Assembly: GCF_001457795.1 (NCBI RefSeq)
Contig: NZ_LN898209.1
Location: forward strand, 124,001 to 188,000
Source of the DNA: Olsenella massiliensis
GTDB taxonomy: Bacteria > Actinomycetota > Coriobacteriia > Coriobacteriales > Atopobiaceae
Length of the DNA: 64,000 bases
Direction: 5' to 3'
The notes under the pieces are model-generated. The model was not told the origin of the DNA. It did not search any database and was given only the letters and a program-made list of their open reading frames with translations. Below are positions 34,790-50,230 of this stretch, in pieces (position 1 is the first letter of the stretch; each line of letters begins with the position of its first letter). The translations under genes and the position numbers were made by a program.

Positions 34790-34808
34790 TCATTGGGGCC
34801 ACTCGGAC

Positions 34809-34952
34809 TCAGGTAAGTCCACGCTCATCTGCTCCATCAACTGACTCGAGGAATTCTCGAGTGCCTCCATGCGCGCGGGCGGTGAGCTCATGCCCCGCAA
34901 GAATCACCTGGAGGTCACACTTGTAGGCACACCTTCGTGATTTTTTAGCAGT
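34809..34952 (-). pseudogene. 3' remnant of an unidentified gene
   Basis: A minus-strand frame of about 47 codons reads AKKSRRCAYKCDLQVILAGHEL and onward to a TGA at 34809, with an in-frame stop just upstream and no start or ribosome site. The Cys-x-x-x-Cys segment suggests the end of a metal-ribbon or transposase-like protein, but I cannot name it. It lies at the left edge of the accessory block and may be part of what interrupted the carbonic-anhydrase gene. Confidence 0.35.
34844..34862. repeat. Short inverted repeat
   Basis: Arms ACTCGAG and CTCGAGT (7 bp) flank GAATT, inside the unidentified gene remnant. It may be chance. Confidence 0.35.
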
Positions 34953-35167
34953 TCAACCTACCTATCAAGTGGAATAGCATGCGCGAATTCAATCTAAGGA
35001 TTGACGTGGCGGGAGATTTTGATACCTCCGGCGACTTCAAGCACCTCGACTAGGCTCGATGATTCGCTCGGTCGACGTGGCCTTCCATCCAAGGCCTTTT
35101 ACTACCTTGATATCCTAAATCTGGTCGAGCGCTCCTTAAAATGAGGCTTTCGTGCGGCGGCATGAGG
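34953..35167. other. Non-coding or decayed sequence
   Basis: Only very short frames occur (for example ATG 34979 to TAG 35053, 24 codons). No recognised protein, RNA or repeat. Confidence 0.4.
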
Positions 35168-35563
35168 CTACGGAGGAGATTGCCTCCCGCTCTCCCGGCA
35201 ACGGAGGCGGTCGCGAAGTTTCTCTAGGGGGTTTAGCTCCTCCGTCGCGACCTCATCCATTGCAACAAAGGTGTCGCGGCCAAGATGGGACCCCATGGCC
35301 CTAACGAGTGCTGCGCCATCATTGGGCACAAGGGTAATGACCTGACCGACATCGGTATGCACAGCGAGCTCACGAACATCTCCACGGAATACTTCGACCC
35401 TAACAAGCGCGATTTCGTTCCAAGCGATACATAGTTGACGCGCGCCATTAATCCCCTCAAACTCGATGCCGGCGTCTCCGCAAAGAATCATTCCCGGCTT
35501 TGGAATAAACCCGCCGGTCAGAACGTTACAGTCGATTTGTGCCTCAATAATGTCGTTAAACAC
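35168..35563 (-). CDS. DUF956 (ManO-like) PTS-associated protein
   Basis: A 131-residue protein whose core (GMILCGDAGIEFEGINGARQLCIAWNEIALVRVEVFRGDVRELAVHTDVGQVITLVPNDGAALVRAM) follows the DUF956 pattern: a PH-like beta fold with GD.G.EF, I.W.EI and a later phosphate-loop-like part. Family members usually sit next to mannose-type PTS operons and are thought to regulate them. The start GTG 35563 has AGGAG about ten bases upstream, at the end of the kinase-like gene, so the two are co-transcribed. Here its partner PTS is fructose-type. Confidence 0.7.
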   Translation of the reverse strand: MFNDIIEAQIDCNVLTGGFIPKPGMILCGDAGIEFEGINGARQLCIAWNEIALVRVEVFRGDVRELAVHTDVGQVITLVPNDGAALVRAMGSHLGRDTFVAMDEVATEELNPLEKLRDRLRCRESGRQSPP

Positions 35564-35580
35564 TATCAGTTCTTACTCCT

Positions 35581-36582
35581 CTACTGTCTGATGCTCGGTT
35601 TCACGCCAGAGGCGAGAAGCGATGCGATTTCGGTTTCGGTCGCGTTTGAAAGATCGCCCAAGACGGTTGCCTTGAAGGCTGATGACATTGTGGCGAAGTC
35701 AACGAGGAACTGGGATTCCCAACGGCTTGCCTCACCATGGAGGATGGCTGCAGCAAAGACACTACCGCAACTGGAAATATCGGCTAAGGACACTTGCTGG
35801 GGTAGCGAGAGGAATGTTTTTTCCCGTGTGACTTTAGCACCGCGAATAAGTGCAATGTCATAGCGGTCAATCTGTCGCACGACAAAGCAGAGAGAGCGCA
35901 GTGAGTAGTCGTTAAGCATTCCATGCGCCCAGTTGAGGCAGAAGTCGAAGAGCTCGGGTTCCTCTACGCTCGCGTGCTCGATAGAGATGATGTCGTCCTC
36001 AGAGGCGATGAGCTCATCGATTAAGGGCATGAGCTTGCCGATTTTTAAGAGTGCGTCCTCGTGAGACCACATGGTTTCCCGATAGTTAAGATCAATAACG
36101 GTTTTTATGCCGCGACCTTTGCAAGCGCGCAACGCGTCAATGCAAACGTGGAACATCTCGTCCGAAATTGCGGGCACGACACCCGAGAAGAAGAACACCT
36201 CGATGCCGTTCAGGATGTGGTCCCAGTCAAAGCTCGCTCTTTTTGCGTTGGCCATAGAAGTGTCGGATCGGTCGTAGGTAACAACGGTCGGACGAATAGA
36301 ACGCCCCCGCTCAGAGTAATAAAGGCCCATGCGATGATTGGAGCGGAGGATTTTCGAGGTGCCAATTCCATAGCGCGCGAGGTTCATAATCGCGTTTGTA
36401 CCGAGACGATTCTCGGGGATTACGCTCATGAAGGCGACATTTTGACCAAGCTGCGCTAGCGTGGTTGCAACAACAACCTCAGCGCCGCCGTACGATATTT
36501 CGACGCTTCTGGCGTTGTCAAGACGCTCGTGCGCAACAGTAGAAAGTCTGATTAGTGGCTCACCGAAGCAGAGGATAACCAT
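35581..36582 (-). CDS. PfkB-family sugar-kinase-like protein with altered active site
   Basis: A 333-residue ribokinase-fold protein, nearest in style to 2-keto-3-deoxygluconate kinases (MVILCFGEPLIRLS; YGGAEVVVATTLAQLGQNVAFMSVIPENRLGTNAIMNLARYGI). The C-terminal PfkB signature, normally DTxGAGDxF, reads DISSCGSVFAAA, so the catalytic base Asp is Ser and the anion-hole glycine pattern is changed. It may be inactive, a sensor, or an unusual kinase. The start ATG 36582 follows TAGGAG. The AEC transporter gene ends two bases upstream and the DUF956 gene follows, all on the minus strand. Confidence 0.82.
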   Translation of the reverse strand: MVILCFGEPLIRLSTVAHERLDNARSVEISYGGAEVVVATTLAQLGQNVAFMSVIPENRLGTNAIMNLARYGIGTSKILRSNHRMGLYYSERGRSIRPTVVTYDRSDTSMANAKRASFDWDHILNGIEVFFFSGVVPAISDEMFHVCIDALRACKGRGIKTVIDLNYRETMWSHEDALLKIGKLMPLIDELIASEDDIISIEHASVEEPELFDFCLNWAHGMLNDYSLRSLCFVVRQIDRYDIALIRGAKVTREKTFLSLPQQVSLADISSCGSVFAAAILHGEASRWESQFLVDFATMSSAFKATVLGDLSNATETEIASLLASGVKPSIRQ

Positions 36583-36584
36583 AG

Positions 36585-37511
36585 CTATACTCCTAAGAAA
36601 AGCACTAGCGAGGTCATCATGATGATGCCTGCAAGGATGGTTAACGCGTTCGCCATTCCGGCTAGCCCTTTGTCGCCGCCAGCCCACAGAGTGTAAACCG
36701 GTCCCGTCGAGGGCGCTGGCGCCCAGGCAAGAATGGCAACTACCTTGCGGATAATGGGGTCAAAGGGCAGCAAAAACAGCGCGGCCAGCGAGAGAACAGC
36801 TGCAAAGGCAAATCGCCAGCTTATCAGGCGAATTAGTTTTGCGGCTTTAGTCTTGTTAACCGTGAACCTAATTATAAGCCCGATCATGAACATTGCTAAA
36901 AAGGAATTTGCGTTGGCAATGGGATCGATAAGAGTGATGGCTTCTGGGGGAATCCGCAAGTCAAAGAGTCCCATGAAGATAAGGACCACATAGCAGTCGA
37001 AAGACGCGGACGAGAAGAGCGAACGGGCAAACAATGTGGCTTTGTCACGCATACACTGATAGTCAGTGTCAAGCACAAGCGCACGAATGAGTGCCCAGGT
37101 GCCTCCCGTGCACATAAGAGAGTTTCCGGCATCAAACAGACATGTTGCGATGGCCGCTTGAGCAGGGAAAAAAGCTTGTACAAAGGCGAATGCAAAGCAC
37201 CCAATATTGAAGCCTGCGACGTTGGACTGTTGAAGAATTCGCTCATCCTGTGGCTTGCCAGCGTATACAACCAGCGAGAGGAAGAATGGCGTGACGTTCG
37301 CAGCGAAACCGAGGGCGATGAGGCACAGAAGTGATTGGTCGAATTTGGATGCCCCAAACGCACGGATTATGGCGCAGGGAAGTGTCAGGTTAAATACGAT
37401 TTTGGAGATTAGTCGGTCGGCACCTTCCCCAAACTTTCCACTGTGACCGGCAGCAACGCCTATGAGGATGACAACGACGAAGGATGAAACTTTAGCTAAG
37501 ACATTAAACAT
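36585..37511 (-). CDS. AEC-family (auxin efflux carrier-like) transporter
   Basis: A 308-residue membrane protein with about ten helices in two halves. The opening MFNVLAKVSSFVVVILIGVAAGHSGKFGEGADRLISKIVFNLTLPCAIIRAF is typical of bacterial AEC transporters, which carry organic acids such as malate or malonate. The second half includes IANANSFLAMFMIGLIIRFTVNK. It lies in a minus-strand series with the kinase-like and DUF956 genes, divergent from the PTS operon, so it may export or import an acid from that pathway. Confidence 0.87.
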   Translation of the reverse strand: MFNVLAKVSSFVVVILIGVAAGHSGKFGEGADRLISKIVFNLTLPCAIIRAFGASKFDQSLLCLIALGFAANVTPFFLSLVVYAGKPQDERILQQSNVAGFNIGCFAFAFVQAFFPAQAAIATCLFDAGNSLMCTGGTWALIRALVLDTDYQCMRDKATLFARSLFSSASFDCYVVLIFMGLFDLRIPPEAITLIDPIANANSFLAMFMIGLIIRFTVNKTKAAKLIRLISWRFAFAAVLSLAALFLLPFDPIIRKVVAILAWAPAPSTGPVYTLWAGGDKGLAGMANALTILAGIIMMTSLVLFLGV

Positions 37512-37592
37512 AACGGGTGTGGCTCCAAATATGACGGTTGAGCAAAAGAAAGGGCCGGCTGGCACCGGCCCTTGAAGGAAAGGTGTCTGTAA

Positions 37593-38156
37593 TTAATATT
37601 TGGGCTTCTGGATGCGGCTTACCTTCTCGGGGTGGAAGCGCTTGACTGCGGCAAGCCCATCCCGCGCATCAATGTGGTCGCCCGCCTTTTTAAACTGAAT
37701 ACGGATAGGTGAGAAGCCCATATCGATGTTGGCTTGTGCAAGACGGGCTTGCCGGCGATTGCGAATCTTGACCCATTCGTCATAGTTGGTGGGAACCGCG
37801 CATAGGAAGGTGTCGTCCTTGAGTTTAAGAAGATGTACGTCTGAAATCTGATTCCAGGGAGTAAAGCCTGAGCCCATCGAGTCGGTGTTGTCGGTAATCC
37901 CCTTTTCGTCGATGACAATGACGCTGTGGCGATGGATGAGCTTTACGATGTTGGATCCAATAATGAAGACTGAGATGGGGAGCATAATCCAGCCCATGCA
38001 AATCTTCATAATAAGGAGATTCTCTGCGTAGGGCAGTGGCTGTGTGAGCACGATGATTGACCCGGAGAGCAGGCAAGCTCCCATAAACAAATAAGATACG
38101 AGAAGGACGGCGTTCGCATTGATGGCGAGTTTCTCACCTTCATTGGTACGGGACAT
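37593..38156 (-). CDS. STM3941-like membrane protein with PH-like domain
   Basis: A 187-residue protein. Two membrane helices (about residues 15-38 and 48-70) are followed by a short beta-rich PH-like domain starting HRHSVIVIDEKGITDNTDSMGSGFTPWNQISDVHLLK. This layout matches the poorly known STM3941 family. ATG 38156 has AAGGAAGGA upstream. It is the first gene of the minus-strand series and is read away from the PTS operon. A membrane-bound regulatory role is possible but unproven. Confidence 0.7.
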   Translation of the reverse strand: MSRTNEGEKLAINANAVLLVSYLFMGACLLSGSIIVLTQPLPYAENLLIMKICMGWIMLPISVFIIGSNIVKLIHRHSVIVIDEKGITDNTDSMGSGFTPWNQISDVHLLKLKDDTFLCAVPTNYDEWVKIRNRRQARLAQANIDMGFSPIRIQFKKAGDHIDARDGLAAVKRFHPEKVSRIQKPKY

Positions 38157-38513
38157 CCGAAATCCTTCCTTTGTGCGCGTAATTCATGCGAATAATTGTG
38201 CTAGTTGAATCATAGGCAATCTATTGGTTTAGCTTGACGAGCATCACCTAAATATGAAGAAATAATGTGTATAAATACACGAAGAATCTCTTATCAGTAG
38301 AATTTTTAATAAAAACGAACAAGAAAAAGAACACAATATGTAATATATATGAATTAACAGCAGAAATATCAACTTCATTCCAAAGATTCTGTGTTGGAAA
38401 TATGATTGATTTCATCGAACCTCCAATGAAAAGAACTTGCGAGGATGGAGGTGCTGGCCAGAATAGGTACATATGTTCTATACGTTGAAAGAAAAAGAGA
38501 GAGGAGAAAACGG
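38157..38513. promoter_or_regulatory. AT-rich divergent control region of the accessory catabolic locus
   Basis: A 357-bp gap between the minus-strand series and the PTS operon. It is by far the most AT-rich stretch in the window. A near-perfect palindrome GTGTATAAATACAC lies at 38267-38280 and is a good operator candidate. TTGACG at 38234-38239 could be a -35 element. An open frame at 38267-38488 has no ribosome site and Lys/Asn-rich filler composition, so I treat it as leader DNA. The EIIB ribosome site GAGGAG ends near 38506. Confidence 0.6.
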
Positions 38514-38840
38514 ATGGCAGGCAAGAAGTTCATCGTTGGTGTTACTGCGTGTCAAATCGGCATTGCACATACGTTTATGGCTGCCGAGTCTCTGCAGCGA
38601 GCTATCGAAGCACGTGGATGCGAGGCAAAAATTGAGACCCAGGGTGCGACGGGTGCCGAGAACGTTATCACCGATGAGGATCTTGCTCGTGCCGATGCTG
38701 CGATAATCGCGGCTGATGTCAAAATCAAGCACGGCGAGCGCTTTGATCCCATTCCCACGCTTAACTGCAAAACCAATGAGGTCATGACGGCCGAGACGGC
38801 TCTTAGCGTTGTCGATGAGGTTCTGGAGGCGATTGAGTAA
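38514..38840 (+). CDS. PTS system fructose-family EIIB component
   Basis: A 108-residue phosphocarrier that passes phosphate from EIIA to the incoming sugar. The active Cys13 sits in VTACQIGIAHTFMAAESLQ, close to the family pattern VTACPTGIAHTxMA. The remaining sequence (CEAKIETQGATGAENVITDEDLARADAAIIAADVKI) is equally typical. The start ATG 38514 is preceded by GAGGAG. EIIC begins two bases after the stop. The cognate EIIA is probably the gene at 49.4 kb. Confidence 0.92.
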   Translation: MAGKKFIVGVTACQIGIAHTFMAAESLQRAIEARGCEAKIETQGATGAENVITDEDLARADAAIIAADVKIKHGERFDPIPTLNCKTNEVMTAETALSVVDEVLEAIE

Positions 38841-38842
38841 CT

Positions 38843-39979
38843 ATGGCAGAGATTAAGCGTAAGAACGTAAAGAAAAAGACCGCAGGCCGCCAAGCTTGGG
38901 ATGCGGTTCTTACAGGCATCTCCTACATGATTCCGTTCATCGTCGGTGGTGGCGTGCTCTGGGGTATCGCTAAGGCCATGGGCGGCTATAACATCGCGGG
39001 CGACATGAAGTCCCTGATTGCCGCTGGAGGCAGCTACAAGGACTACACCCTTGCCATGGTGATTTACTCCATAGGCTCCGCAATCTTTGATGTGTGCGTG
39101 CCCATTATCGGCGCCTATACAGCTTATGCTCTCTCCGATAAACCCGGTCTCGCCCCTGGTTTTGCCGTTGGTGTCATCTCTAACACTATCAAAGCCGGTT
39201 TTCTCGGCGCTGTCATCGGCGGCATCATTGCTGGCTACATCGTAATCTTTCTCAAGGATGCTTCCAAGAAGGTTCCGAGCTCAATCCAGTCCGTTTTCCC
39301 GATTCTGATTATTCCGGTCGTTGGTACCGCGATAACCTCCCTGCTCATGTGGTATATCATTGGTGTTCCCATCGGCTGGTTCATGATAGCCATCACCTCA
39401 CTGCTAACCAATCTCCAGGGCATCGGTGGCGCCGTCTTCGGCGCGGCCATTGGTGTCGGCATGTCCATTGACCAGGGTGGTCCAATTTCCAAGGCAGTTG
39501 CGCTTGTTGCTAATGGCCTCAATGCTGACGGTATCCTTGGGCCTGCAGCTTGCAAGATGTGCGGTGGAATGCAAAACCCACTCGGCGTCTGCTTTGCTCA
39601 GATTATCGACCGCTTTGCCGGCAAGAAGAAGTTTACCGAGAAGGAGCGCTCGACCACTGTATCCGGTCTTGTTCTTGCCTGCTGCTACATCCAGGAGTAC
39701 GTTATCCCGTTCCTAGTCCAGGATACCTGGCGTTGCATCATTCCCTGCATGGTCGGCGGGGCTATCTCCGGTGGTCTTTGCGGCTACTTTGCCCTTGAGT
39801 CTGCTGCTGTCCACGGTGGTGTCTTTGTTATTCCAATGATGAGCAATCCGCTTCAGTTCATTCTGTTCTGGTTCGTCGGTGCGGCTATTAACGGCACCCT
39901 CTACTTTCTCCTTCGTAAGCCCGTCGGGGCTGAGGGCGACATGGCCGGTAACGGTGTTCTAGATCAGCTCCTCGCCTAG
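38843..39979 (+). CDS. PTS system fructose-family EIIC membrane component
   Basis: The 378-residue permease domain of the fructose-type PTS, with about eight to ten helices. Typical segments are LTGISYMIPFIVGGGVLWGIAKAMGG, AYTAYALSDKPGLAPGFAVG, GFLGAVIGGIIAGYIVIFLK and VFGAAIGVGMSIDQGGPISKAV. It has no ribosome site of its own and starts two bases after EIIB, so translation is coupled. In this family the sugar is released as a 1-phosphate or 6-phosphate. The substrate is unknown; the downstream aldolase suggests a keto sugar or polyol. Confidence 0.92.
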   Translation: MAEIKRKNVKKKTAGRQAWDAVLTGISYMIPFIVGGGVLWGIAKAMGGYNIAGDMKSLIAAGGSYKDYTLAMVIYSIGSAIFDVCVPIIGAYTAYALSDKPGLAPGFAVGVISNTIKAGFLGAVIGGIIAGYIVIFLKDASKKVPSSIQSVFPILIIPVVGTAITSLLMWYIIGVPIGWFMIAITSLLTNLQGIGGAVFGAAIGVGMSIDQGGPISKAVALVANGLNADGILGPAACKMCGGMQNPLGVCFAQIIDRFAGKKKFTEKERSTTVSGLVLACCYIQEYVIPFLVQDTWRCIIPCMVGGAISGGLCGYFALESAAVHGGVFVIPMMSNPLQFILFWFVGAAINGTLYFLLRKPVGAEGDMAGNGVLDQLLA

Positions 39980-40126: not shown

Positions 40127-41017
40127 ATGTATGCCTCAATGAAAGAAATTCTCCAGCACGCAAGCGTCAACCATTATGCGGTACCTGCGCCGAATTGCCC
40201 TGGCTATAACATGGTCAAGGCAGCCTGTATGGCCGCTGAGGCAAAGAAGTCTGCGGTCATCATTGACCTTTCTCCCCGTCAGTTCAAGACAAACGCCACC
40301 CCTGAGGTCTGGGCCCCTATGGTCAAGGCAATCGCAGAGCCTCTGGACGTCCCCGTGGCGCTTAACCTCGATCACGGTACGGAGATTGAGGACATCTGCC
40401 GCTGCATTAAGGCCGGCTTCTCGAGTGTCATGTGTGACGCCTCCAGCCTGCCCTTTGAGGAGAATGTCCGCCGCGTCCAGCAGGTTGTGGTCTGTGCTCA
40501 TGCCCACGGCGTTTCGGTTGAGGCCGAACTCGGCCGCGTCGGTCAGGCCGCCGAAGGTGATGGTCGCTTTGATGACATGTACACCAATGTTGATATGGCC
40601 GTCGAGTTTGTCAAGCGAACCGGTTGCGACTGCCTGGCCGTCGCCATCGGAACCGCTCACGGAAAATATCCCGCCGACTATGTGCCCCGTCTCGACTTTG
40701 AGCGCCTCGCCGAGATTAAAGCCGCTCTCGGTCAGAACTACCCGCTTGTGCTCCACGGTGGCTCCGGCTCTGGTGACAAGAACTTCCAGAAGGCTGTCGC
40801 TGGCGGCATCAACAAAATCAACCTATGGACTGACTACTCCCGCACCTATATCAGCGCCGTCCGAGAGTTCCTCGCGGTCAACGAGAGTCCGGACTACATT
40901 TTTGTGGCCACTGATGCTGAGGAGAAGGCGTCTAAGTGGCTCGAGCGTTACATGGACCTCTTCGGCTCTGCAGGACGTTTTCAGTTCTCCAAACATAAGA
41001 TGCAGGAGATGGACTAA
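40127..41017 (+). CDS. Class II aldolase of the KbaY/GatY/IolJ/Fba superfamily
   Basis: A 296-residue zinc aldolase that should split a phosphorylated ketose into DHAP and an aldehyde. Catalytic Asp and zinc His lie in ALNLDHGTEIE; EAELGRVG, GTAHGKYP (zinc His), LHGGSGSGD (zinc His) and KINLWTDYSR complete the site. The start ATG 40127 follows GAAAGGAAAGG. It differs clearly from the housekeeping aldolase at 27 kb. The substrate may be a tagatose, fuculose or deoxy-ketogluconate type phosphate; sequence alone cannot decide. Confidence 0.88.
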   Translation: MYASMKEILQHASVNHYAVPAPNCPGYNMVKAACMAAEAKKSAVIIDLSPRQFKTNATPEVWAPMVKAIAEPLDVPVALNLDHGTEIEDICRCIKAGFSSVMCDASSLPFEENVRRVQQVVVCAHAHGVSVEAELGRVGQAAEGDGRFDDMYTNVDMAVEFVKRTGCDCLAVAIGTAHGKYPADYVPRLDFERLAEIKAALGQNYPLVLHGGSGSGDKNFQKAVAGGINKINLWTDYSRTYISAVREFLAVNESPDYIFVATDAEEKASKWLERYMDLFGSAGRFQFSKHKMQEMD

Positions 41018-41022
41018 CGCCC

Positions 41023-42174
41023 ATGCTAAGGTTTCTCTTCGCATGCGATTCATTCAAAGGCACCATTTCTTCGGCCCGCTCCGCTGAGCTGCTGGTCGAG
41101 GAGGCCCTACCCTTCTTTCCGGACGCAACCTTCTCGTCCTTGGAGGTTGCCGACGGTGGGGAGGGGACGGTGGATGCCCTGGTTTCTGCTCTCGGCGGTG
41201 AGCGTGTGAGGCTTTCCGTTGCTAATCCGCTGGGCCGTTCGGTTGAGGCGTGCTACGGCCTTCTTCCCGGCGGCACGGCAGTCATCGAGACGGCCTCTGC
41301 CTCCGGTTTGCCTCTGCTTTCACTTGCGGATAGAAATCCACTTATTACCAGTACTTACGGCACCGGTGAGCTGATTGCCGACGCTATTGCTCGCGGGGCG
41401 TCTGATATCATGCTCGCTATCGGTGGGTCAGCTACCAACGACTGTGGCATGGGCGCCGTGCGCGCGCTTGGCGTGCGTCTTCTCGATGAAAAGGGCGTTG
41501 AGCTCAAAGGCATGGGCTCTGACCTCGCGCGTGTGGCCCGTATCGACCTTTCTGGCATGGATAAGCACGTAGCAAAGACGAACTTTCATGTGATGTGCGA
41601 TGTCAACAACCCGTTAATTGGACCCCGCGGCGCTACACATACTTTCGGTCCTCAAAAGGGCGCTGACCCCACCTGCGTCGATGAATTAGAGGCCGGTATG
41701 GTGAGCTATTCCTCTATTCTTGCCGAGACCTTTGGCTTAGACGTTTCGACAGAGCCAGGCATGGGGGCCGCTGGGGGCCTCGGTGCTGCAGCGCGCCTCT
41801 TTTTCAATGCCGAGATTGTGGCTGGTGTTGATTGCGTGCTCGATCTTGTCGGCTTCGACGAGGCACTCGCCGGCTGCGACCTTTGCGTGACGGGCGAAGG
41901 CCATGCTGACTCCCAGTCCGCTCACGGCAAGGTCGTTTCGGGTATTGCCGCACGATGTCGCGCTGCTGATGTTCCATGTGTTGCCGTCGTGGGTGGCATG
42001 AACGCCGACGCGATAACGCTGTTTGACTGTGGTGTTAATGCGCTTGTGCCTACGGTGATTGATACCTCCTCCATCGAGGATGCGCTCGCTGCAGCGGAAG
42101 ACAACTTTCGCCTTGCGGCCCAACGCATGTTCGCGCTTTTGTCTATTGGCAAGAAACTGGGGGTAACGCAGTGA
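41023..42174 (+). CDS. Glycerate 2-kinase, GarK/GlxK family
   Basis: A 383-residue enzyme phosphorylating D-glycerate. The diagnostic N-terminus reads FLFACDSFKGTISSARSAELLVEEAL, followed by DGGEGTVDAL, ATNDCGMGAVRALGVRLLD, MCDVNNPLIGPRGATHTFGPQKGA and TGEGHADSQSAHGKV. It starts five bases after the aldolase stop and overlaps the next gene by 4 bp (GTGA), so it is in the same transcript. It implies that glycerate, or glyceraldehyde oxidised to glycerate, arises in the pathway. Confidence 0.92.
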   Translation: MLRFLFACDSFKGTISSARSAELLVEEALPFFPDATFSSLEVADGGEGTVDALVSALGGERVRLSVANPLGRSVEACYGLLPGGTAVIETASASGLPLLSLADRNPLITSTYGTGELIADAIARGASDIMLAIGGSATNDCGMGAVRALGVRLLDEKGVELKGMGSDLARVARIDLSGMDKHVAKTNFHVMCDVNNPLIGPRGATHTFGPQKGADPTCVDELEAGMVSYSSILAETFGLDVSTEPGMGAAGGLGAAARLFFNAEIVAGVDCVLDLVGFDEALAGCDLCVTGEGHADSQSAHGKVVSGIAARCRAADVPCVAVVGGMNADAITLFDCGVNALVPTVIDTSSIEDALAAAEDNFRLAAQRMFALLSIGKKLGVTQ

Positions 42175-43817
42175 TTAGCGGCGCTTCTTGCTGGAACCTT
42201 TCGATTCAGCAGGGGATGTCCCATCTGGACGTCTCTGGTCGTGACGTGTACACCTTCTCGTCCATGAAGCCTACGCTCTACGCGCAGCTTGCTGCCACCG
42301 TAGCAAGGACGCCCGATGCCGTGGCCATTGTTGATGACTGGGGACATCATATTACGTTCGCTCAGCTCATGCACCGTGTTGACGATCTGGCTGGCTACAT
42401 ATGCACAAATCCTAGCGTGCATCAGGGTGACCGCATCGGCCTCCTTATGCACGCCGACTCCGAGTTTGTCGTCGCTTTGTACGCCATTTCGAAGATGGGC
42501 GGCACTTGCGTGCCTATCCCGACCAAGTACCGCAAGCCGGAGGTGACCTCCATTGCACTTGCGGCCGACCTGAAAGCTCTTGTCATTGGCGAGGAGTTCG
42601 AGGCGTGGTGTGGGAGCCTTCCCGTACGCCCTTCCGAGATCATCGTCGCAACCAACTGTAAGAAAGGCTTTGGATTTCCACAGGCCCAAGGCTTTGCCCC
42701 TGCGTGCGAGACTCGCGGTGCTCTTGATGATGCCGCAATTATGATATTCACAAGCGGAACTACATCGAACGCCAAGGGCGTTGTGCTTTCGAACCGCAAT
42801 GTAATTCATGCCACGATGGTCTACCAGCGACTTATGAGTACTGTGCCTGACGATCGCTGTCTCATCCCGATTCCCATATATCACGTTACAGGCCTCATCG
42901 CTCTACTTGCTCAGTTTGTGTATGTGGGCGCGAGAACCTACCTCCATCGTTTCTTTGATGCGAGGCGTGTATTGAGCTCTGTGCGTGATGACCAGATTAC
43001 TTACCTCCATGGGTCACCGACTTCCTTCGCCGAGCTATTGCCTCTGCGCGACGAGTTTCCATTTCTACCCTCAGTGCGCTGTATGCTGTCGGGTTCAAGT
43101 TACGAGCCTGTGTCTACAATGCGGCGCTTTCATGAGTGGATGCCTACGGCAACGTTTCAGGTGGTTTACGGCATGACCGAGACTGCCAGCCCGGCGCTCC
43201 TCTTTCCGCTTGACTCGCCGACATCTGTTTATGCTGGAGCCACTGGCAAACCAGTTCCTGGCGTTGATGCGAAGATTATGGATGAGGGTGGCTCAGAAGT
43301 CCCCTGCGGTCAGACCGGTGAGCTCCTCTTGCGCGGCGCTTGCGTAACGAGCAGTTACTTTCGCTATGACGGCGGTGAGATTGAGCCGGATGGCTGGCTA
43401 CACACCGGAGACCTCGCTCACGCGAACGAGGAGGGCATGGTCTGGGTTGTCGACCGCAAGAAGGACATGATTAACCGCGGAGGCGAGAAGGTCTGGTGCT
43501 CGGAGCTCGAGGAGGTCCTCTGCGAGCTCGACGGTGTTTCGGAAGCCTGCGTGTCTGGCATCTCAGACAAGCTCTATGGTGAGGTTCCTGTCGCCGCCGT
43601 CGTGCGCACCGCTGGCTTCCAGATTTCGGCTGCAGACATCCAAGCTGCGCTTGTATCCAGGATTGCCCACTTTAAGATCCCCGTTTCCATCGTCTTTGTA
43701 GACAAGATTCCCCAGACGAGGGGCGACAAACCCAACAGGTCCGCTGTCCGTGACGTGGTTCTTGCGGCTTCCGGCAAGAGATCGTCCCAGGAAGGAAACC
43801 AAGAGCATGGCAGGTAA
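42171..43817 (+). CDS. AMP-dependent acyl-CoA synthetase/ligase
   Basis: A 548-residue ANL-superfamily enzyme that activates a carboxylic acid with ATP and CoA. Core motifs: the phosphate loop IFTSGTTSNAKGVVLSNRN, VVYGMTETASPAL, the hinge GWLHTGDLAHANEEGMVWVVDRKKDMINRGGEKVWCSELEEVL and the C-terminal catalytic Lys in QTRGDKPNR. The GTG at 42171 overlaps the glycerate kinase stop; an ATG at 42216 is an alternative. Its end overlaps the CoA-transferase gene by 11 bp. Substrate class cannot be fixed; it is closest in form to medium/short-chain and hydroxy-acid ligases. Confidence 0.9.
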   Translation: MISGASCWNLSIQQGMSHLDVSGRDVYTFSSMKPTLYAQLAATVARTPDAVAIVDDWGHHITFAQLMHRVDDLAGYICTNPSVHQGDRIGLLMHADSEFVVALYAISKMGGTCVPIPTKYRKPEVTSIALAADLKALVIGEEFEAWCGSLPVRPSEIIVATNCKKGFGFPQAQGFAPACETRGALDDAAIMIFTSGTTSNAKGVVLSNRNVIHATMVYQRLMSTVPDDRCLIPIPIYHVTGLIALLAQFVYVGARTYLHRFFDARRVLSSVRDDQITYLHGSPTSFAELLPLRDEFPFLPSVRCMLSGSSYEPVSTMRRFHEWMPTATFQVVYGMTETASPALLFPLDSPTSVYAGATGKPVPGVDAKIMDEGGSEVPCGQTGELLLRGACVTSSYFRYDGGEIEPDGWLHTGDLAHANEEGMVWVVDRKKDMINRGGEKVWCSELEEVLCELDGVSEACVSGISDKLYGEVPVAAVVRTAGFQISAADIQAALVSRIAHFKIPVSIVFVDKIPQTRGDKPNRSAVRDVVLAASGKRSSQEGNQEHGR

Positions 43818-45402
43818 GTTCCTCAAAGCAAACTTTGTCACTCCGCGTCAGGTTGCTGCGGGTATCGAGGATGGGCAGACCATCTGCACCGTCGGCATGA
43901 CGCTTGTGTCAGCCTCCGAGTCCAATCTCAAGGCTATCGAGGAGCGCTTTCTTTCTACCGGTCACCCCCGCAACCTTACGCTGCTGCACTCCTGCGGCCA
44001 ATCTGACCGCAAGCGTGGCATTCAGCACCTCGCCCACGAGGGCCTCGTCACTCGCATCATCGGCTCCCACTGGGGCCTCCAGCCTCGCTGGATGGACATG
44101 ATTGCCAATAACCAGGTCGAAGCATATTGCCTGCCTCAGGGCCAGATTGCGCAACTCTACCGCTCCATGGCCTGCGGCCTCCCCGGCAAGATGAGCAAGG
44201 TTGGCCTGGGCACCTTTATTGACCCGCGTGTTGAGGGCGGAAAGATGAACGACCGCACCAAGCCCCTGCCCGACATCTCCGAGATCATCGAGATTCACGG
44301 CGAAGAGTACATGTTTTATCACGAGGTGCCGATTGACGTCTGTCTTATCCGCGGTACCGTCTGCGATGAGATGGGTAATCTCACCACTACCGACGAGGCC
44401 ATGAAGCTCGAGGTCTTCAACGCGGTTCTCGCCACAAAGCGCTATGGCGGAAAGGTCGTCGCTCAGGTCCGCGAGGTCGCTGAGACTGGCACCGTTAATC
44501 CCAAGGACGTTACCGTTCCGGGTGTCTTCATCGATGAGGTCGTGATTTGCCCCAACCCGCAGGAGGACCATCGCATGACCTCTTCAATCTACTTCGACCC
44601 CTCCTATGTGGGCAAGCTTCGCGTCCCCCAGTCCGCCGTTGAGCCTGCTCCCTTCAATGAGCGCAAACTTATTGCTCGCCGTGGCTGTGAGGAGCTCTAT
44701 CCGGGCTGCGTCGTCAACCTAGGCACCGGCATCCCCAACGACATGGTCGGCCGTGTCTGCGCGGAGGAGGGCCTCTCGGACAAGGTTATGATCACCGTCG
44801 AGAGCGGCATCTATGGCGGTGTTCAGCTGGGCGGCATCGACTTCGGCATCGGACAGAACCTCCTTGCCATGGTCAGCCACCCTGAGCAGTTCGACTACTA
44901 CAATGGCGCGGGCGTTGATGTGACCTACATGGGTATGGGCGAGCTTGACGGCGATGGCAATGTTAATTCCACCAAGATGGGTCCTCGCTGCGCCGGAGCA
45001 GGCGGTTTCGTTGACATCACGCAGAACGCCAAGACTGTCGTCTTTCTCGGCACCTTCACGGCCAAGGGCGCTAAGTACTCCTTCGAGGATGGTAAGCTCA
45101 CCATCCTGCGGGAGGGTGCCGTCAGAAAGATGATCTCCCATGTAGGCCAGCTCTCGTTCAATGGCCCAGCCGCTCGCAAGAAGGGTCAGCGCGTGGTCGT
45201 TGTCACCGAGCGCGCTGTTTTCGAGCTCGTGCCCGAGGGCGTCATGCTGGTTGAGATTGCGCCTGGTATCGATCTCCAGACGCAGGTCCTCGACATGATG
45301 GACTTCGCGCCCATTGTCTCCGACGACCTCAAGCTCATGGACGCGTCTCTCTTTAACCAGGACGGCCCCTCCGGTCTTCTTTCCGGCTTTGAGGTCAAGT
45401 AG
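43807..45402 (+). CDS. Acyl-CoA:acetate/propionate CoA-transferase (YdiF/Pct type)
   Basis: A fused-subunit CoA-transferase of 531 residues, with both halves of the SCOT fold in one chain. The first half has ARQVAAGIEDGQTICTVG-like and GSHWGLQPRW segments. The second half carries the covalent catalytic Glu332 in VESGIYGGVQLGGIDFG, followed by MVSHPEQFDYYNGAGVDVTYMGMGELD. It moves CoA between short-chain acids such as acetate, propionate, lactate, 3-hydroxy- or 3-oxo-acids. ATG 43807 has GGAAGGA upstream inside the end of the ligase gene. With the ligase, the locus has two ways to make an acyl-CoA. Confidence 0.92.
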   Translation: MAGKFLKANFVTPRQVAAGIEDGQTICTVGMTLVSASESNLKAIEERFLSTGHPRNLTLLHSCGQSDRKRGIQHLAHEGLVTRIIGSHWGLQPRWMDMIANNQVEAYCLPQGQIAQLYRSMACGLPGKMSKVGLGTFIDPRVEGGKMNDRTKPLPDISEIIEIHGEEYMFYHEVPIDVCLIRGTVCDEMGNLTTTDEAMKLEVFNAVLATKRYGGKVVAQVREVAETGTVNPKDVTVPGVFIDEVVICPNPQEDHRMTSSIYFDPSYVGKLRVPQSAVEPAPFNERKLIARRGCEELYPGCVVNLGTGIPNDMVGRVCAEEGLSDKVMITVESGIYGGVQLGGIDFGIGQNLLAMVSHPEQFDYYNGAGVDVTYMGMGELDGDGNVNSTKMGPRCAGAGGFVDITQNAKTVVFLGTFTAKGAKYSFEDGKLTILREGAVRKMISHVGQLSFNGPAARKKGQRVVVVTERAVFELVPEGVMLVEIAPGIDLQTQVLDMMDFAPIVSDDLKLMDASLFNQDGPSGLLSGFEVK

Positions 45403-45525: not shown

Positions 45526-46380
45526 GTGGACGCAATCAAGGTAGCGGTCATCGGCAGTGGTCTTATGGGCGGCGGTATCGCCCAAGCCTGCGCGCAGTCT
45601 GGCTTTACCGTAGTCAACATCGACATCGCTCAGGACCCGCTCGACAAGGCTAAGGCCCTCGTCGGTAAGCTTCTCCAGAAGAAAGTCGATAAGGGTAAGA
45701 TGAGCGTTGAGGACTGCCAGACCATTCGCGACCGTCTCTCCTACAGCACCGATTACTCCGAGGTCGCCGGCGCCAAGTTTGTGATTGAGGCTGTCCCCGA
45801 GCGCCTCGACTTCAAGCAGTCAACCTTCCAGAAAATCGATGAGTACGCCGATGCTGACGCCGTGCTACTTACCAATACCTCTGGCATTGACATCGACGAG
45901 ATCGCCGTCTCCACCAGGCGCCCCGAGTCCGTCCTCGGCCTACACTTCTTCTATCCCGCCCCGGTTATGAAGCTCGTTGAGATTATTTGCGGCGAGAAGA
46001 CCTCCGACGAGGCTGCGGCTAAGACCCACGAGTTCGCCCGCGCTCTCGGCAAGGTCTCGGTCGATGCCCCCAATACCCCAGGCTTCATCGTCAACCGCAT
46101 CATCAACCCCTACGAGAACATGGGCGCCTGGCTCGTCTCCGAAGGCGTTTCGGCTAAGGATGTCGATACGGCTATGAAGCTCGCCTGTAATCACCCCATG
46201 GGTCCCTGCGAGCTTATGGACTTCGCTGGCATCGACGTCGTCTACGCCTCGCTGATGAACCTTTATGAGGGCTACGACCACGACGACCTGTATCGCCCGG
46301 CTCCCGTGTTCAAGGAGCTTATTGACGCCGGTAGCCTCGGCCGCAAGACCGGCAAGGGCTTCTACGACTACTTCGAGTAG
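45526..46380 (+). CDS. hbd: 3-hydroxybutyryl-CoA dehydrogenase
   Basis: A 284-residue dehydrogenase interconverting 3-hydroxyacyl-CoA and 3-oxoacyl-CoA with NAD(P). The Rossmann motif [17 protein letters not shown] is near residue 9. The catalytic His/Glu region reads [18 protein letters not shown], and [24 protein letters not shown] starts the C-terminal domain. The start is GTG 45526 with GAAAGGA upstream. The gene pairs with the thiolase that follows. No enoyl-CoA hydratase or acyl-CoA dehydrogenase is present, so the usual route on to butyryl-CoA is not encoded here. Confidence 0.94.
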
Positions 46381-46454
46381 CTTCGTTCCCGAACATCTGA
46401 GCACTGTGCAACATTCCGCGCCAGTATCTAACAATTCTGAAAAGGAGCATTGCC

Positions 46455-47672
46455 ATGAGCAACCGCAAGTTCGAGAACAGCCCCGATGACATCGTTATTG
46501 TCTCGGGCGCCCGAACCGCCGTCGCCAAGTTTGGCGGCAGCCTGAAGACCCTTTCGGCCATTGATATGGGCTCCATCGTCGTTGCCGAGGCCGTTAAACG
46601 CGCCGGTATAGATCCCGCCGTCGTTGACGAGTGCATTATCGGCCAGGTAGGTTCCTGGGGTGCTAACGGCTTTGTCGCCCGCGCCATCAGCCTGAAGGCC
46701 GGCCTGCCCAACGAGACCTGCGCCTACTCCGTCAATCGCCAGTGCGGTTCCGGCCTGCAGTCTATCGCCGATGGCATCATGGAAATCAAGTGCGGCCAGT
46801 CCGAGGTCGTTGTGGCTGGCGGCTCCGAGTCCCTCTCGCAGCTTCCGTACTACGTGCCCTCCGCCCGCTGGGGAGCTCGCATGGGTCACAAGCAGTTTGA
46901 GGACGGTGTGGTCGACATCCTCACTTGGCCGCTCGACATGTGCCACAATGGTGTCACTGCCGAGAACGTGGCAAAGAAGTTCAACGTCTCCCGTGAGGAG
47001 CAGGACGCCTTCGCCGCTCAGTCCCAGCAGCGCGCCTGCAAAGCCGTCGTTGGAGGCGTTTTCAGGGACGAGATTATCCCCGTCGAGATTCACGGTCGCA
47101 AGGGCGCCGTCACCGTTTTCGACACCGATGAGAACCCCCGCGAGGGCGTGACCGCCGAAGGGCTCGCTCACTTGAAGCCGTGCTTCGTTACCGACGGTTC
47201 CGGCACCGTCACCGCTGCCAACTCCTCCTCGCTTAACGACGCCGCCGCAGCTGTAGTCCTCATGACCCGCGCCAAGGCTGAAGAGCTCAGCTGTACCCCG
47301 ATGGTCTGCATCCGCGACTTCGCCGTCGCCGGCTACGAGGCGTCCCTTATGGGCTACTCACCGTATTTCTCATCTAAGAAGCTCGCCGAGAAGCTTGACA
47401 TAAACCTCACCGCTATCGACTTCTTCGAGATTAACGAGGCCTTCGCGTCCCAGGCTTTCGCGGTCTCCCGCGATCTTGGCCTCGACCCCGAAAAGGTCAA
47501 CATCTACGGCGGCGGCATCTCCATTGGTCACCCAATCGGTGCCACCGGCACCATCCTGGCCATCAAGTGCGCCTATGAGCTCGCGCGTCGCCATCCCGAG
47601 AAGCAGGATGCCATGGTGTCTATGTGCATCGGCGGCGGCCAGGGCATCTCGATGTACTTCACCAAGGAATAA
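46455..47672 (+). CDS. Acetyl-CoA C-acetyltransferase (thiolase)
   Basis: A 405-residue thiolase that joins two acetyl-CoA or cleaves acetoacetyl-CoA. The nucleophile Cys97 lies in NRQCGSGLQSI. The catalytic His is in INEAFASQAF and GHPIGATGT, and the second Cys in MCIGGGQGISMYF. ATG 46455 follows AAAAGGAG. It sits between the hydroxyacyl-CoA dehydrogenase and alcohol dehydrogenase genes and completes a two-step conversion between 3-hydroxybutyryl-CoA and two acetyl-CoA. Confidence 0.95.
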   Translation: MSNRKFENSPDDIVIVSGARTAVAKFGGSLKTLSAIDMGSIVVAEAVKRAGIDPAVVDECIIGQVGSWGANGFVARAISLKAGLPNETCAYSVNRQCGSGLQSIADGIMEIKCGQSEVVVAGGSESLSQLPYYVPSARWGARMGHKQFEDGVVDILTWPLDMCHNGVTAENVAKKFNVSREEQDAFAAQSQQRACKAVVGGVFRDEIIPVEIHGRKGAVTVFDTDENPREGVTAEGLAHLKPCFVTDGSGTVTAANSSSLNDAAAAVVLMTRAKAEELSCTPMVCIRDFAVAGYEASLMGYSPYFSSKKLAEKLDINLTAIDFFEINEAFASQAFAVSRDLGLDPEKVNIYGGGISIGHPIGATGTILAIKCAYELARRHPEKQDAMVSMCIGGGQGISMYFTKE

Positions 47673-47717
47673 GGCGCATCTCGTCCATCAAATCCCAAAC
47701 GAAAGGAAATACCAACA

Positions 47718-48908
47718 ATGGTCAACTTTGAGTATCTCGTTCCCACCAAGATGGTCTTCGGTAAGGGCACCGAGGAGAAGGCCGGCCGCCTTATCAGGGA
47801 GTTCGGCGGCCACAAGGCCCTTATCCACTGGGGTGGCGACTATGTGCGTACCACCGGTCTGCTTGAGCGCGTCGAGCGCGGCCTTGAGGCTGAGGGCATC
47901 GAATATGTCGAGATGGACGGTGTTGTGCCTAATCCTCGTCTCTCGCTAATTAAGCAAGGCGTTGAGCTGTGCAAGAAGGAGAACGTCGACTTTATCCTTG
48001 CTATCGGCGGCGGCTCCGCCATCGACTCCTCCAAGGCCATCGCCTACGGCCTTGCAAACGACTTCGAACTTGAGGATCTCTTCCTCGGCAAGGTGAGCAC
48101 CGACAAGATTGCAAAGATTGGCGCCATCTCCACCCTAGCCGGTACCGGCTCCGAGACTTCGAACTCCACGGTCATCAACATTGACACTATGGGCGACGCC
48201 ATGCTTAAGCGCTCCTACAATCACGAGTGCGCCCGCCCGCTGTTCGCCATCCTGAACCCCGAGCTCACCTATTCGGTGCCCGCGTTCCAGACCGCCGCCC
48301 CGGGCGCCGACATCATGATGCACACCATGGAGCGCTACTTCACCACCGAGCAGCATGTCGAGCTCTCTGACGAGTTGGCCGAAGGCCTCATGCGTACCGT
48401 TAAGACCTTCGTCCCCGAGGCGCTCGCCAATCCGACGAGCTACGCCGCTCGCGCCAATCTGCTGTTGGCGGGTGCCAAGTCCCATGATGGCCTCACCGGC
48501 CTCGGTCGCGTTAGCGACTTTGCGTGCCACGCTATTGAGCATGAGATTGGCGCCATGTTCGACGTCGCCCACGGTGCTGGCTTGACCGCCATCTGGTCCA
48601 GCTGGGCCAAGTACGTCATCGACGTCGACCCCGAGCGCTTCGCACAGTTTGCCGTTAATGTCTGGGGCGTCCAGAACAACTTCCACAACCCCAAGGAGAC
48701 CGGTCTTCGTGGCGTCAAGGCTTGGGATGAGTGGTGCCATTCCATTAATCTACCCACCAGCCTCTCCGAACTCGGCATCGAGCCGACTGACGAGCAGATT
48801 CACGAGATGGCTCAGGGCGCCGTCGACGCCCGCGGTGGTGACCATGCCGGTGCGTTCAAGTTCCTCTACGTTGAGGATATCGAAAACATCCTCAAGGCTG
48901 CCCGCTAA
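47718..48908 (+). CDS. Iron-containing alcohol dehydrogenase (BdhA/YqhD-like)
   Basis: A 396-residue group III alcohol dehydrogenase. It begins FEYLVPTKMVFGKGTEEKAG and has the NAD(P) loop LAIGGGSAIDSSKAIAYG, STLAGTGSETSNSTVI, the metal-ligand region PGADIMMHTMERYF, and HAIEHEIGAMFDVAHGAGL with further ligand His residues. The length and motifs match butanol dehydrogenases that reduce aldehydes. The start ATG has GAAAGGA upstream. It is the last gene of the co-directional series, followed by a terminator. It could reduce an aldehyde product or oxidise an alcohol substrate. Confidence 0.93.
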   Translation: MVNFEYLVPTKMVFGKGTEEKAGRLIREFGGHKALIHWGGDYVRTTGLLERVERGLEAEGIEYVEMDGVVPNPRLSLIKQGVELCKKENVDFILAIGGGSAIDSSKAIAYGLANDFELEDLFLGKVSTDKIAKIGAISTLAGTGSETSNSTVINIDTMGDAMLKRSYNHECARPLFAILNPELTYSVPAFQTAAPGADIMMHTMERYFTTEQHVELSDELAEGLMRTVKTFVPEALANPTSYAARANLLLAGAKSHDGLTGLGRVSDFACHAIEHEIGAMFDVAHGAGLTAIWSSWAKYVIDVDPERFAQFAVNVWGVQNNFHNPKETGLRGVKAWDEWCHSINLPTSLSELGIEPTDEQIHEMAQGAVDARGGDHAGAFKFLYVEDIENILKAAR

Positions 48909-48930
48909 GTCTTCAGCCGATAGGCAGCAT

Positions 48931-48974
48931 CGGGGTGTGCGGTGCCCTTCCACACCGCACACCCCGTCGTTTTT
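48931..48974 (+). terminator. Rho-independent terminator ending the catabolic series
   Basis: A 14-bp perfect stem (48931-48944 with 48953-48966, CGGGGTGTGCGGTG) is followed by TCGTTTTT. Confidence 0.92.
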
Positions 48975-49015
48975 GTTCGCTGTGCCCAGTGCCATGTTGA
49001 GTCTGGTGTCTAGGG

Positions 49016-49359
49016 ATGATAACGCTTGACAAGAAGAGAAATAAGCTCCTCATGGTGGCCGCGGCCCTGCTTTTGCCCCTGGGTCTTATCTACGCCTTCG
49101 TGTTCATGCTCGATGGCGTCGGCATGGACACCACCGGCATTGGCCGCGAGCTGCCGTAGGCACCATGCCGTTCGTTTCGCGCGTCGAATGGAGACAGGCG
49201 AATCTTGCTGTCGTTAACGTCTATAGCATCTTTGTCTCACTCGCCGGGCCTTTTGGATTTGGGATGCTATTTGAGACTTACACATCGCTGCTCTCGGTTC
49301 TGGGGATAATGACCGTATTAGGTGGCGCGAGCGTGCTGCTTGCGAGCAAACTGCAGTAA
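49016..49359 (+). pseudogene. Remnant of a membrane transporter (MFS-like)
   Basis: Two short frames in succession. The first (49016-49159) encodes a hydrophobic helix (LLMVAAALLLPLGLIYAFVFML) and ends in GIGRELP and a stop. The second (49165-49359) encodes NLAVVNVYSIFVSLAGPFGFGMLFETYTSLLSVLGIMTVLGGASVLL, like the last helices of an MFS carrier. Neither is long enough for a functional transporter, so this is probably a deleted or frameshifted gene between the catabolic series and the EIIA gene. Confidence 0.55.
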
Positions 49360-49425
49360 TAGCTAGGTCGGTGGACTGGACTTTTAGATACAAAAGCTGT
49401 GAGTTTTCACAGAGAGGGGAGTTTC

Positions 49426-49881
49426 ATGAGCGACTTCGTAAAGGAGGAGAACGTGTTCGTCGGCCAGAGCGCGCAAAGCCGCGATGAGGTTCTCCGCTTT
49501 CTCGCCGACCGTGCGGGTGATTTGGGCATCACTACCGATTCCGATGCCGTTTATCAGGCATTCCTTGAGCGCGAGGACATGGGTGAGACGGGTATGACTG
49601 ACGGCTTCGCCGTGCCGCACGCTAAGAGTGCCGCTATCGACCATGCCACCGTTATCGTTTTCAAAAACGATTGCCCTCTTGATTGGCCTAGCTTCGACAA
49701 CAAGCCGGTCGACATCGCCCTGGCGCTCCTCGTCCCCGACGTTGAGGCTGGTACGACGCATATCAAGCTACTGTCAAAGACCGCCGTACTGCTCATGCAG
49801 GAGGAGTTTAAGAAGCTTCTGCGCAGCTCTGACGATCGTAAGGCCATTGCTGACGCCATTAACACTGGCATCGAATCGTAA
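49426..49881 (+). CDS. PTS system fructose-family EIIA component
   Basis: A 151-residue EIIA of the fructose/mannitol/Ntr class. Phosphorylated His65 lies in GFAVPHAKSAAI. The start ATG 49426 has AGAGGGGA upstream; the nine codons before it are not needed. It most likely serves the EIIB-EIIC pair at 38.5-40 kb, although about 9 kb and a terminator lie between, and so needs its own promoter. It is the last intact gene of the accessory block. Confidence 0.9.
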   Translation: MSDFVKEENVFVGQSAQSRDEVLRFLADRAGDLGITTDSDAVYQAFLEREDMGETGMTDGFAVPHAKSAAIDHATVIVFKNDCPLDWPSFDNKPVDIALALLVPDVEAGTTHIKLLSKTAVLLMQEEFKKLLRSSDDRKAIADAINTGIES

Positions 49882-49915
49882 AGGGAATCGTTTTTACTTT
49901 TGACTTGTTGGGTTG

Positions 49916-49957
49916 GTCCTTCTTGCTGCCGCATGGGAGTTAGGTGACAAGAAGGAC
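49916..49957. terminator. Inverted repeat at the end of the accessory block
   Basis: Perfect 10-bp arms GTCCTTCTTG (49916-49925) and CAAGAAGGAC (49948-49957) with a 22-base loop lie between the EIIA gene and a minus-strand remnant whose stop codon adjoins it. A shared terminator is likely. Confidence 0.5.
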
Positions 49958-50170
49958 TCAGCGCCCTTTCTTCGTCACCGTGCTAGAAGCGATGAGGTGG
50001 GCTCGCAGCAACGATAGTTCCCCCAGATGAGCCATATTCTTAGATGCTTCCTGTGCAACGCGCAGGCTGATTTCTGGTTCTATTTCGGCAACGGGAGAGC
50101 AGCGCCCTCCACTGCGCGCTCGCACGATCGAGCGTCTGTGACGGCCCAAGACCTTGTTAGAGGGAACGTC
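49958..50170 (-). pseudogene. Minus-strand open frame, probable gene remnant
   Basis: The frame reads GGRCSPVAEIEPEISLRVAQEASKNMAHLGELSLLRAHLIASSTVTKKGR to a stop directly before the inverted repeat. It has no start or ribosome site, and upstream it runs into the antisense of the cytidylate-kinase-like gene. It may be the C-terminal end of a lost regulator of the locus, but I cannot assign a family. Confidence 0.3.
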
Positions 50171-50230
50171 TAACCTTACCGCGGATGACGGGGGAGGCGC
50201 AGAGCATGGGGAGTCTTTACCGTCAGCAAC

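Follow-up and report, generated by a model that had tools for sequence, protein, structure and literature searches.

Gene content of the locus

We analyzed a 64,000-nucleotide stretch of the genome of Olsenella massiliensis (G000:C11:124001-188000; hereafter, the window), a member of the Coriobacteriia with a genome of 1.82 Mb, and focused on a low-GC gene island within it. The island joins a PTS half, consisting of phosphotransferase system (PTS) enzyme II (EII) genes, an aldolase, and a reductase, to a CoA half, consisting of a ligase, a coenzyme A (CoA)-transferase, a dehydrogenase, a thiolase, and often a glycerate kinase (GK). The features are as follows.

34474..34755, minus strand: C-terminal remnant of a gamma-carbonic anhydrase, cut at the island's left edge; only residues 110-201 kept
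35168..35563, minus strand: small DUF956 (ManO-like) protein, weak match (26.1 bits versus a cut-off of 26.9)
35581..36582, minus strand: PfkB-family kinase (PF00294), with 2-keto-3-deoxygluconate (KDG)-kinase-like nearest models; in 10/10 Coriobacteriia clusters
36585..37565, minus strand: AEC-family carboxylate carrier (PF03547, 28.1 versus a cut-off of 25.7); in 7/10 clusters
37593..38156, minus strand: STM3941-family small membrane protein (NF041635, above cut-off); in 10/10 Coriobacteriia clusters
38157..38513, no strand: putative divergent regulatory region with conserved elements
38514..38840, plus strand: PTS EIIB, fructose family (TIGR00829); the Cys of CQIGIAHT is retained
38843..39979, plus strand: PTS EIIC, fructose family (TIGR01427)
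40127..41017, plus strand: class II ketose-bisphosphate aldolase of the SPRQ clade (TIGR00167, cbbA subfamily, above cut-off); zinc ligands H83, H178, and H210 retained
41023..42174, plus strand: GK, GarK/GlxK family (TIGR00045/PF02595); goes with the CoA half
42171..43817, plus strand: AMP-forming acyl-CoA ligase; below the cut-off of every equivalog model shown; homologue in deoxyribonate-type clusters
43810..45402, plus strand: CoA-transferase, FadX/YdiF-like (PF01144; nearest model FadX)
45526..46380, plus strand: 3-hydroxyacyl-CoA dehydrogenase (HBD; 3HCDH, PF02737/PF00725) with an HFFYP motif
46455..47672, plus strand: thiolase (TIGR01930; top-scoring model BktB)
47718..48908, plus strand: Fe-containing alcohol dehydrogenase (Fe-ADH; PF00465), proposed aldehydo-acid reductase
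49399..49881, plus strand: PTS EIIA, fructose family (TIGR00848)

Family models found every gene listed in a preliminary description of this DNA present and intact, in the order and on the strands given there. The overlaps it reported in the co-directional series were seen between GK and the ligase and between the ligase and the CoA-transferase, each of a few bases. In the divergent set, the STM3941, AEC, and PfkB assignments held, whereas DUF956 fell just under the Pfam cut-off. Judging from where the matches of relatives begin, the true start of EIIB is probably at about 38514 and that of PfkB at about 36582.

An insertion with a damaged flank and a shared divergent region

The GC content was 0.45–0.62 within the island and 0.64–0.71 outside it, bearing out the drop in base composition previously noted at both edges. 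A gene is indeed interrupted at the left edge: positions 34480-34755 matched just residues 110-201 of a gamma-carbonic anhydrase of the same genus (206-aa open frame), and the N-terminal half of the cut gene was not found elsewhere within the window. In genome G231 of the same genus (locus L230), the gamma-carbonic anhydrase gene is intact within the order DAHP synthase, gamma-carbonic anhydrase, cytidylate kinase, and large ABC exporter, and this block carries approximately 3.5 kb of unrelated DNA at the position of the cluster. Because the GC content is aberrant, the gamma-carbonic anhydrase is truncated, and the same block occurs without the cluster in G231, the low-GC cluster is an insert or has replaced other DNA, with damage to one flank. 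Aberrant composition, a disrupted gene, and a relative's block lacking the cluster are the marks of a horizontally acquired island. No flanking direct or inverted repeats of at least 12 bp were present at the island edges.

The divergent region contains a 15-bp element, T(A/G)TGnnGnAAnTATG, at 38253 and again at 38390, approximately 137 bp apart, with the pair GAACA-N7-GAACA lying between the two copies at 38317. The 15-bp element was present in eight of nine aligned regions and recurs ahead of related clusters, one of them with the PTS half alone; the GAACA pair occurred in five of the nine and had no other copy within the window. The region thus holds a likely operator for a putative regulator of the island. 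No regulator gene was recognized among the island genes. In a related cluster, an insertion element with an IS3-like transposase sequence occupies the divergent intergenic region (L013:3988-5541).

Inheritance of the two halves as one unit

A search with the ligase of 298 Coriobacteriia genomes gave matches in 10, from seven genera and two families. All 10 carry EIIB, EIIC, the aldolase, GK, the ligase, the CoA-transferase, HBD, the thiolase, the ADH, PfkB, and STM3941, with the two halves adjacent; EIIA was found in eight of these stretches and AEC in seven. DUF956 recurred in just one other Coriobacteriia locus (L017). Among the carriers, L019 and L020 have a major facilitator superfamily (MFS) protein of the same cluster as the oxalate/formate-lactate (OFA)-type MFS of L013 and L014, and the latter two carry AEC as well.

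A CoA-transferase alignment run against 84,980 species genomes yielded 67 loci. Overall, the combined set was found at 23 loci spanning three phyla, in Coriobacteriia, in Clostridia, and in Brenneria roseae, where EIIB, EIIC, the aldolase, the ligase, the CoA-transferase, HBD, and the thiolase recur, mostly together with Fe-ADH, EIIA, and GK. Cultured carriers include Thermophilibacter gallinarum, Collinsella provencensis, and Faecalicatena faecalis. In a CoA-transferase tree, which was built by a quick method with approximate support after removal of five duplicate loci that overlapped the Coriobacteriia genomes, the 23 combined loci and L039, which is cut off by the end of its contig immediately before the ligase, formed a single group with 99% support in the Shimodaira–Hasegawa-like approximate likelihood ratio test (SH-aLRT). 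This group fell within a broader set of loci carrying a short-chain dehydrogenase/reductase (SDR) but no PTS. Furthermore, divergence of the aldolase, EIIC, and ADH correlated with that of the CoA-transferase, HBD, or thiolase (Mantel r 0.81–0.89, 0/999 permutations), in part reflecting shared organismal descent. Given the co-occurrence in 10/10 Coriobacteriia genomes and at 23 loci, the single tree group, and the correlated divergence, chance adjacency is untenable, and the PTS half and the CoA half are one inherited unit. The survey thus upholds the earlier view that the halves belong together and contradicts the possibility, raised with it, that they meet by chance in this genome only.

Several neighbors vary around this core. 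Each PTS-type cluster has one small membrane protein: Coriobacteriia have STM3941, and Brenneria and most clostridial loci have a NERD-domain protein (e.g., L028:7672-8385). Extra HPr genes lie beside two PTS-type clusters (L032:13849-14862 and L040:7800-8069), and L032 also has enzyme I. PfkB was not present in the combined clostridial loci examined, and no separate acid transporter adjoined the combined Lachnospiraceae loci.

Relationship of the CoA half to the deoxyribonate pathway

In Klebsiella michiganensis, mutant fitness data showed that the genes BWI76_RS23695-23730 are important for growth on deoxyribonate and under no other tested condition (Price et al. 2019, PMC6365646). The enzyme steps of that route, as proposed by the same authors, comprise a CoA-synthetase, a CoA-transferase, a hydroxyacyl-CoA dehydrogenase, a thiolase, and a glycerate kinase (PMC6365646). 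All five enzyme types occur in the window, with the core order ligase, CoA-transferase, dehydrogenase, and thiolase, and by gene order and content, the CoA half is a module of this type. The preliminary description, which knew of no described pathway with the present gene set, was therefore half wrong. It had correctly recognized the glycerate kinase but left its role unassigned; the deoxyribonate proposal supplies one, and a GK beside the thiolase is explained by the formation of glycerate in a deoxyribonate-type module.

Enterobacterial loci with the deoxyribonate gene order encode CoA-transferases 57–59% identical and thiolases 57–62% identical to those of the window, whereas their ligases are only approximately 37% identical. 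One of them (L136) has the ligase, CoA-transferase, dehydrogenase, and thiolase followed by an MFS carrier, an SMP-30 lactonase, an MFS-like protein, and SdaR; in L137 and others, GK and SdaR adjoin the same core. Neither the lactonase nor the galactonate-type MFS of L136 is found at the window locus; conversely, the window has PTS, aldolase, Fe-ADH, and AEC genes. Relatives of the CoA half occur in Coriobacteriia, Lachnospiraceae, Bacillaceae, Pasteurellaceae, Succinivibrionaceae, and Spirochaetes. Those without a PTS are accompanied by lactonase-like metallohydrolases, solute:sodium symporters, LacI or SdaR regulators, and GK, a gene content fitting aldonate or aldonolactone substrates.

The dehydrogenase also differs: the enterobacterial loci have an SDR, and the window has an HBD. 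From loci with the same gene order, we infer that the K. michiganensis dehydrogenase is an SDR. Combined loci have HBD in place of the SDR, and L082 alone has both. The HBD of the window has the motif HFFYP versus HFFNP in the host genome's own butyrate enzyme. The substrate of HBD enzymes is L-3-hydroxyacyl-CoA, whereas FabG-like SDRs use the D form. The replacement of SDR by HBD suggests that the C3 configuration of the acid is probably opposite to that of 2-deoxy-D-ribonate. In L082, a block encoding a CaiB-type CoA-transferase, a MaoC-type dehydratase, an enoyl-CoA hydratase, and the SDR lies between the aldolase and the ligase (L082:5149-8357), and similar sets occur in L068-L070 and L087; such a block might provide the same acid with another CoA route.

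The PTS half and its aldolase

Each half also exists as a free-standing system. In the Coriobacteriia locus L207, PfkB, AEC, STM3941, EIIB, EIIC, the aldolase, ADH, and EIIA follow one another with nothing inserted, and the genome has no ligase match. Three Lachnospiraceae loci (L173, L174, and L175) have EIIA, EIIB, EIIC, the aldolase, a PRD regulator, and ADH; the L175 genome has no CoA-transferase of the type in the CoA half. Two mannose-PTS loci (L208 and L211) pair the same type of aldolase with an aldo/keto reductase. No GK lies beside the aldolase at any of these six loci, and so GK goes with the CoA half. Among genomes with the PTS half alone, G086 has no PF02595 kinase at all, and G186, G750, and G705 have GK elsewhere.

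These aldolases share the invariant residues S49-P50-R51-Q52 (hence SPRQ) and the zinc ligands. Within 299 Lachnospiraceae genomes, they scored approximately 480–563 bits versus at most 275 for ordinary class II aldolases, and intermediate sequences lacked the Arg. The window aldolase reached 258 bits with its best equivalog against a cut-off of 343, so that none of the fructose-bisphosphate aldolase (FBPA), GatY, or KbaY equivalogs applied and only the cbbA subfamily was passed. Arg51 is shared with IolJ (6-phospho-5-dehydro-2-deoxygluconate aldolase), as judged from two independent Bacillaceae sequences, and is replaced by Gly in FBPA and KbaY. The IolJ substrate is a C6 5-keto acid phosphate with a carboxylate at the corresponding end. 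A class II aldolase beside iolC in Ilyobacter had no equivalent of Arg51, and the other plasmid iol operons compared had no adjoining class II aldolase. Nearly all loci examined had a reductase (Fe-ADH or aldo/keto reductase) next to the SPRQ aldolase, and many also had a carboxylate-type carrier there. Because Arg51 is shared with IolJ, a reductase adjoins, carboxylate carriers recur, and no GK adjoins, these features suggest that the PTS half may make dihydroxyacetone phosphate (DHAP) and an aldehydo-acid that is then reduced. We also considered whether lost distal-phosphate residues at columns 234 and 238, which we take to be residues 255 and 259 of the Giardia enzyme, mark a monophosphate aldolase, and dropped this argument, as Bacillus FBPAs vary there too.

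Two known systems resemble this half. Like the proposed activity, IolJ is a DHAP-forming class II reaction on a ketose phosphate ending in a carboxylate; however, it is 36% identical to the window aldolase, its substrate is phosphorylated by IolC and not by a PTS, and its semialdehyde product passes to IolA. No iolB, C, D, E, or G gene is found at the window locus. The YdjI/YdjH system of Escherichia coli likewise combines a class II aldolase of the same superfamily with a PfkB kinase, a carrier, and reductases, but has no PTS or CoA enzymes, and YdjI is 36% identical to the window aldolase with Gly at position 51. In RefSeq, YdjI is annotated as an aldolase of a C8 uronate (octuluronate) 1-phosphate, which may serve as a precedent for an eight-carbon chain length. 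Literature searches on the PTS half and on pentonic-acid catabolism in gut bacteria turned up no relevant title or abstract. Sister aldolases with G-x-G-Q for SPRQ occur alongside PTS genes at L176, L177, L209, and L210, with neighbors that variously include an RpiB-like isomerase, GldA-like and Fe-ADH dehydrogenases, and an IolC-like kinase or transketolase; these may represent a neighboring set of PTS pathways.

Proposed pathway and alternatives

We tentatively propose, with somewhat less than even confidence, that the enzymes of the island break down a sugar acid (a ketose acid being the likeliest kind) in two stages, with the PTS half feeding the CoA half in series; we infer all the substrates as well as the series link. 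The fructose-type EIIABC would import the sugar acid and phosphorylate it at the position adjoining the keto group, the class II aldolase would split the ketose 1-phosphate into DHAP and an aldehydo-acid, and Fe-ADH would reduce the latter to a hydroxy acid, which strains with the PTS half alone would excrete via the AEC or OFA carrier. The ligase would prime the CoA half, after which the CoA-transferase would recycle CoA onto the hydroxy acid, HBD would oxidize the 3-hydroxyl of the CoA-bound acid, and thiolase cleavage would give acetyl-CoA and glyceryl-CoA. Finally, the CoA-transferase would release glycerate for conversion by GK into 2-phosphoglycerate. The NAD(P)H spent by ADH would be matched by NADH from HBD. 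Because the use of GK requires glyceryl-CoA on thiolysis, the acid should be a 3,4,5-trihydroxypentanoate, and the carbon count would then point to a 2-deoxy keto acid of eight carbons as the PTS substrate.

The preliminary description had arranged the steps as cleavage to DHAP and an aldehyde, CoA activation, 3-hydroxyacyl-CoA, and acetyl-CoA, and this order remains the most economical. The acid of the aldehyde, which it also considered, is unlikely to arise through an aldehyde dehydrogenase: ProA, the wrong enzyme, was the only PF00171 match in the genome, and aldehyde oxidation would thus need another enzyme family. It is simpler to suppose that the substrate already carries the acid group. 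The statement that this is not the standard butyrate pathway was correct. The clostridial pathway (thl-crt-hbd-bcd) shares the thiolase and HBD families, but the window locus has no crotonase/enoyl-CoA hydratase and no acyl-CoA dehydrogenase, and a thiolase, crotonase, HBD, and acyl-CoA dehydrogenase stand in a row elsewhere in the genome (G000:C10), with a CoA-transferase-like gene adjoining. Butyrate or 3-hydroxybutyrate fermentation was accordingly rejected for the island. The separate butyrate-type locus (G000:C10 102000-118000, L212) adjoins mannose-family PTS genes.

Several observations weigh against the series pathway. We know of no natural sugar or source that would give a 2-deoxypentonate in this way, through an eight-carbon 2-deoxy keto acid. 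Arg51 lies where the carboxylate of a six-carbon substrate would be expected, which favors a C6 compound that would give tartronate or malonate semialdehyde; moreover, the SPRQ aldolase of L208 has an isomerase and a phosphofructokinase as neighbors, and its substrate could end in a phosphate. PfkB is given no role in the scheme, and GK does not adjoin most of the combined Lachnospiraceae loci, the genomes tested having a GK somewhere. Some SDR-type clusters carry HBD too, which softens the stereochemical argument.

The most serious competitor, which we regard as less likely, is convergence of the two halves on glycerate. Here, the PTS half would take a C6 5-keto-aldonate (of the fructuronate, tagaturonate, or 5-ketogluconate type) and yield DHAP and tartronate semialdehyde, which ADH would reduce to glycerate, while the CoA half would separately use an external 2-deoxypentonate entering via AEC, with GK shared. 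The alignment of Arg51 with the Arg of IolJ, an enzyme of a C6 5-keto acid phosphate, agrees with this, as do the adjacency of the aldolase and GK, the hexuronate-looking genes beside an aldolase of the same clade in L208, and the occurrence of each half alone, and no exotic sugar is required. However, GK adjoined the aldolase at none of the six loci with the PTS half alone and, in G086, was absent from the genome; the combined Lachnospiraceae loci have no separate acid transporter beside them; and convergence leaves unexplained the single origin of the combined loci and their distinct HBD-type CoA half. Thus, the common origin and the switch to HBD favor the series pathway, whereas the position of Arg51 and known sugar chemistry favor convergence.

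The remaining alternatives carry little weight. It is improbable that the CoA half runs in reverse as an electron sink, with the thiolase joining acetyl-CoA to an acyl-CoA, HBD reducing the product, the CoA-transferase releasing a hydroxy acid, and AEC exporting it. HBD and thiolase are reversible and a carboxylate carrier is within the cluster, but an ATP-consuming ligase and GK would be senseless in that direction, the genome already has a butyrate-type locus, and homologous clusters are needed for growth on deoxyribonate (PMC6365646). We consider very improbable the ordinary use of a neutral ketose of the fructose or tagatose type, with PfkB forming the 1,6-bisphosphate, beside an unrelated CoA operon. 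Every enzyme family is capable of this, and PfkB, the fructose-type EII, and the aldolase are all present; however, the halves are commonly inherited, the combined clostridial loci examined lack PfkB, and the aldolase clade is separate from FBPA and GatY/KbaY. The least probable is a route in which the PTS half splits 2-deoxy-5-ketogluconate into malonate semialdehyde, ADH forms 3-hydroxypropionate, and the CoA half converts this to acetyl-CoA and formyl-CoA. The IolJ-like Arg51 would suit it, and an iol cluster of an Enterococcus plasmid encodes an Fe-ADH and lacks the usual semialdehyde dehydrogenase, but that Fe-ADH shares only 27% identity with the window ADH, GK would be left without a role, and we know of no thiolysis that forms formyl-CoA.

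Implications

Glycerate-forming thiolysis of a sugar acid has so far had genetic support in one enterobacterium. The present results add relatives of that module in further lineages and, in one branch, its fusion with a PTS and an aldolase. It is possible, though we consider it rather doubtful in full, that these loci represent an uncharted anaerobic pathway for 2-deoxy keto-sugar acids, probably of eight carbons, in gut bacteria, with PTS-aldolase and CoA-thiolysis stages joined by a hydroxy acid, closed redox balance, and half-pathway strains that cross-feed the acid. If the series pathway is true, gut anaerobes have an uncharted sugar-acid route whose substrate could be found from a short list of candidates, and strains carrying a single half would point to a specific exchange by cross-feeding.

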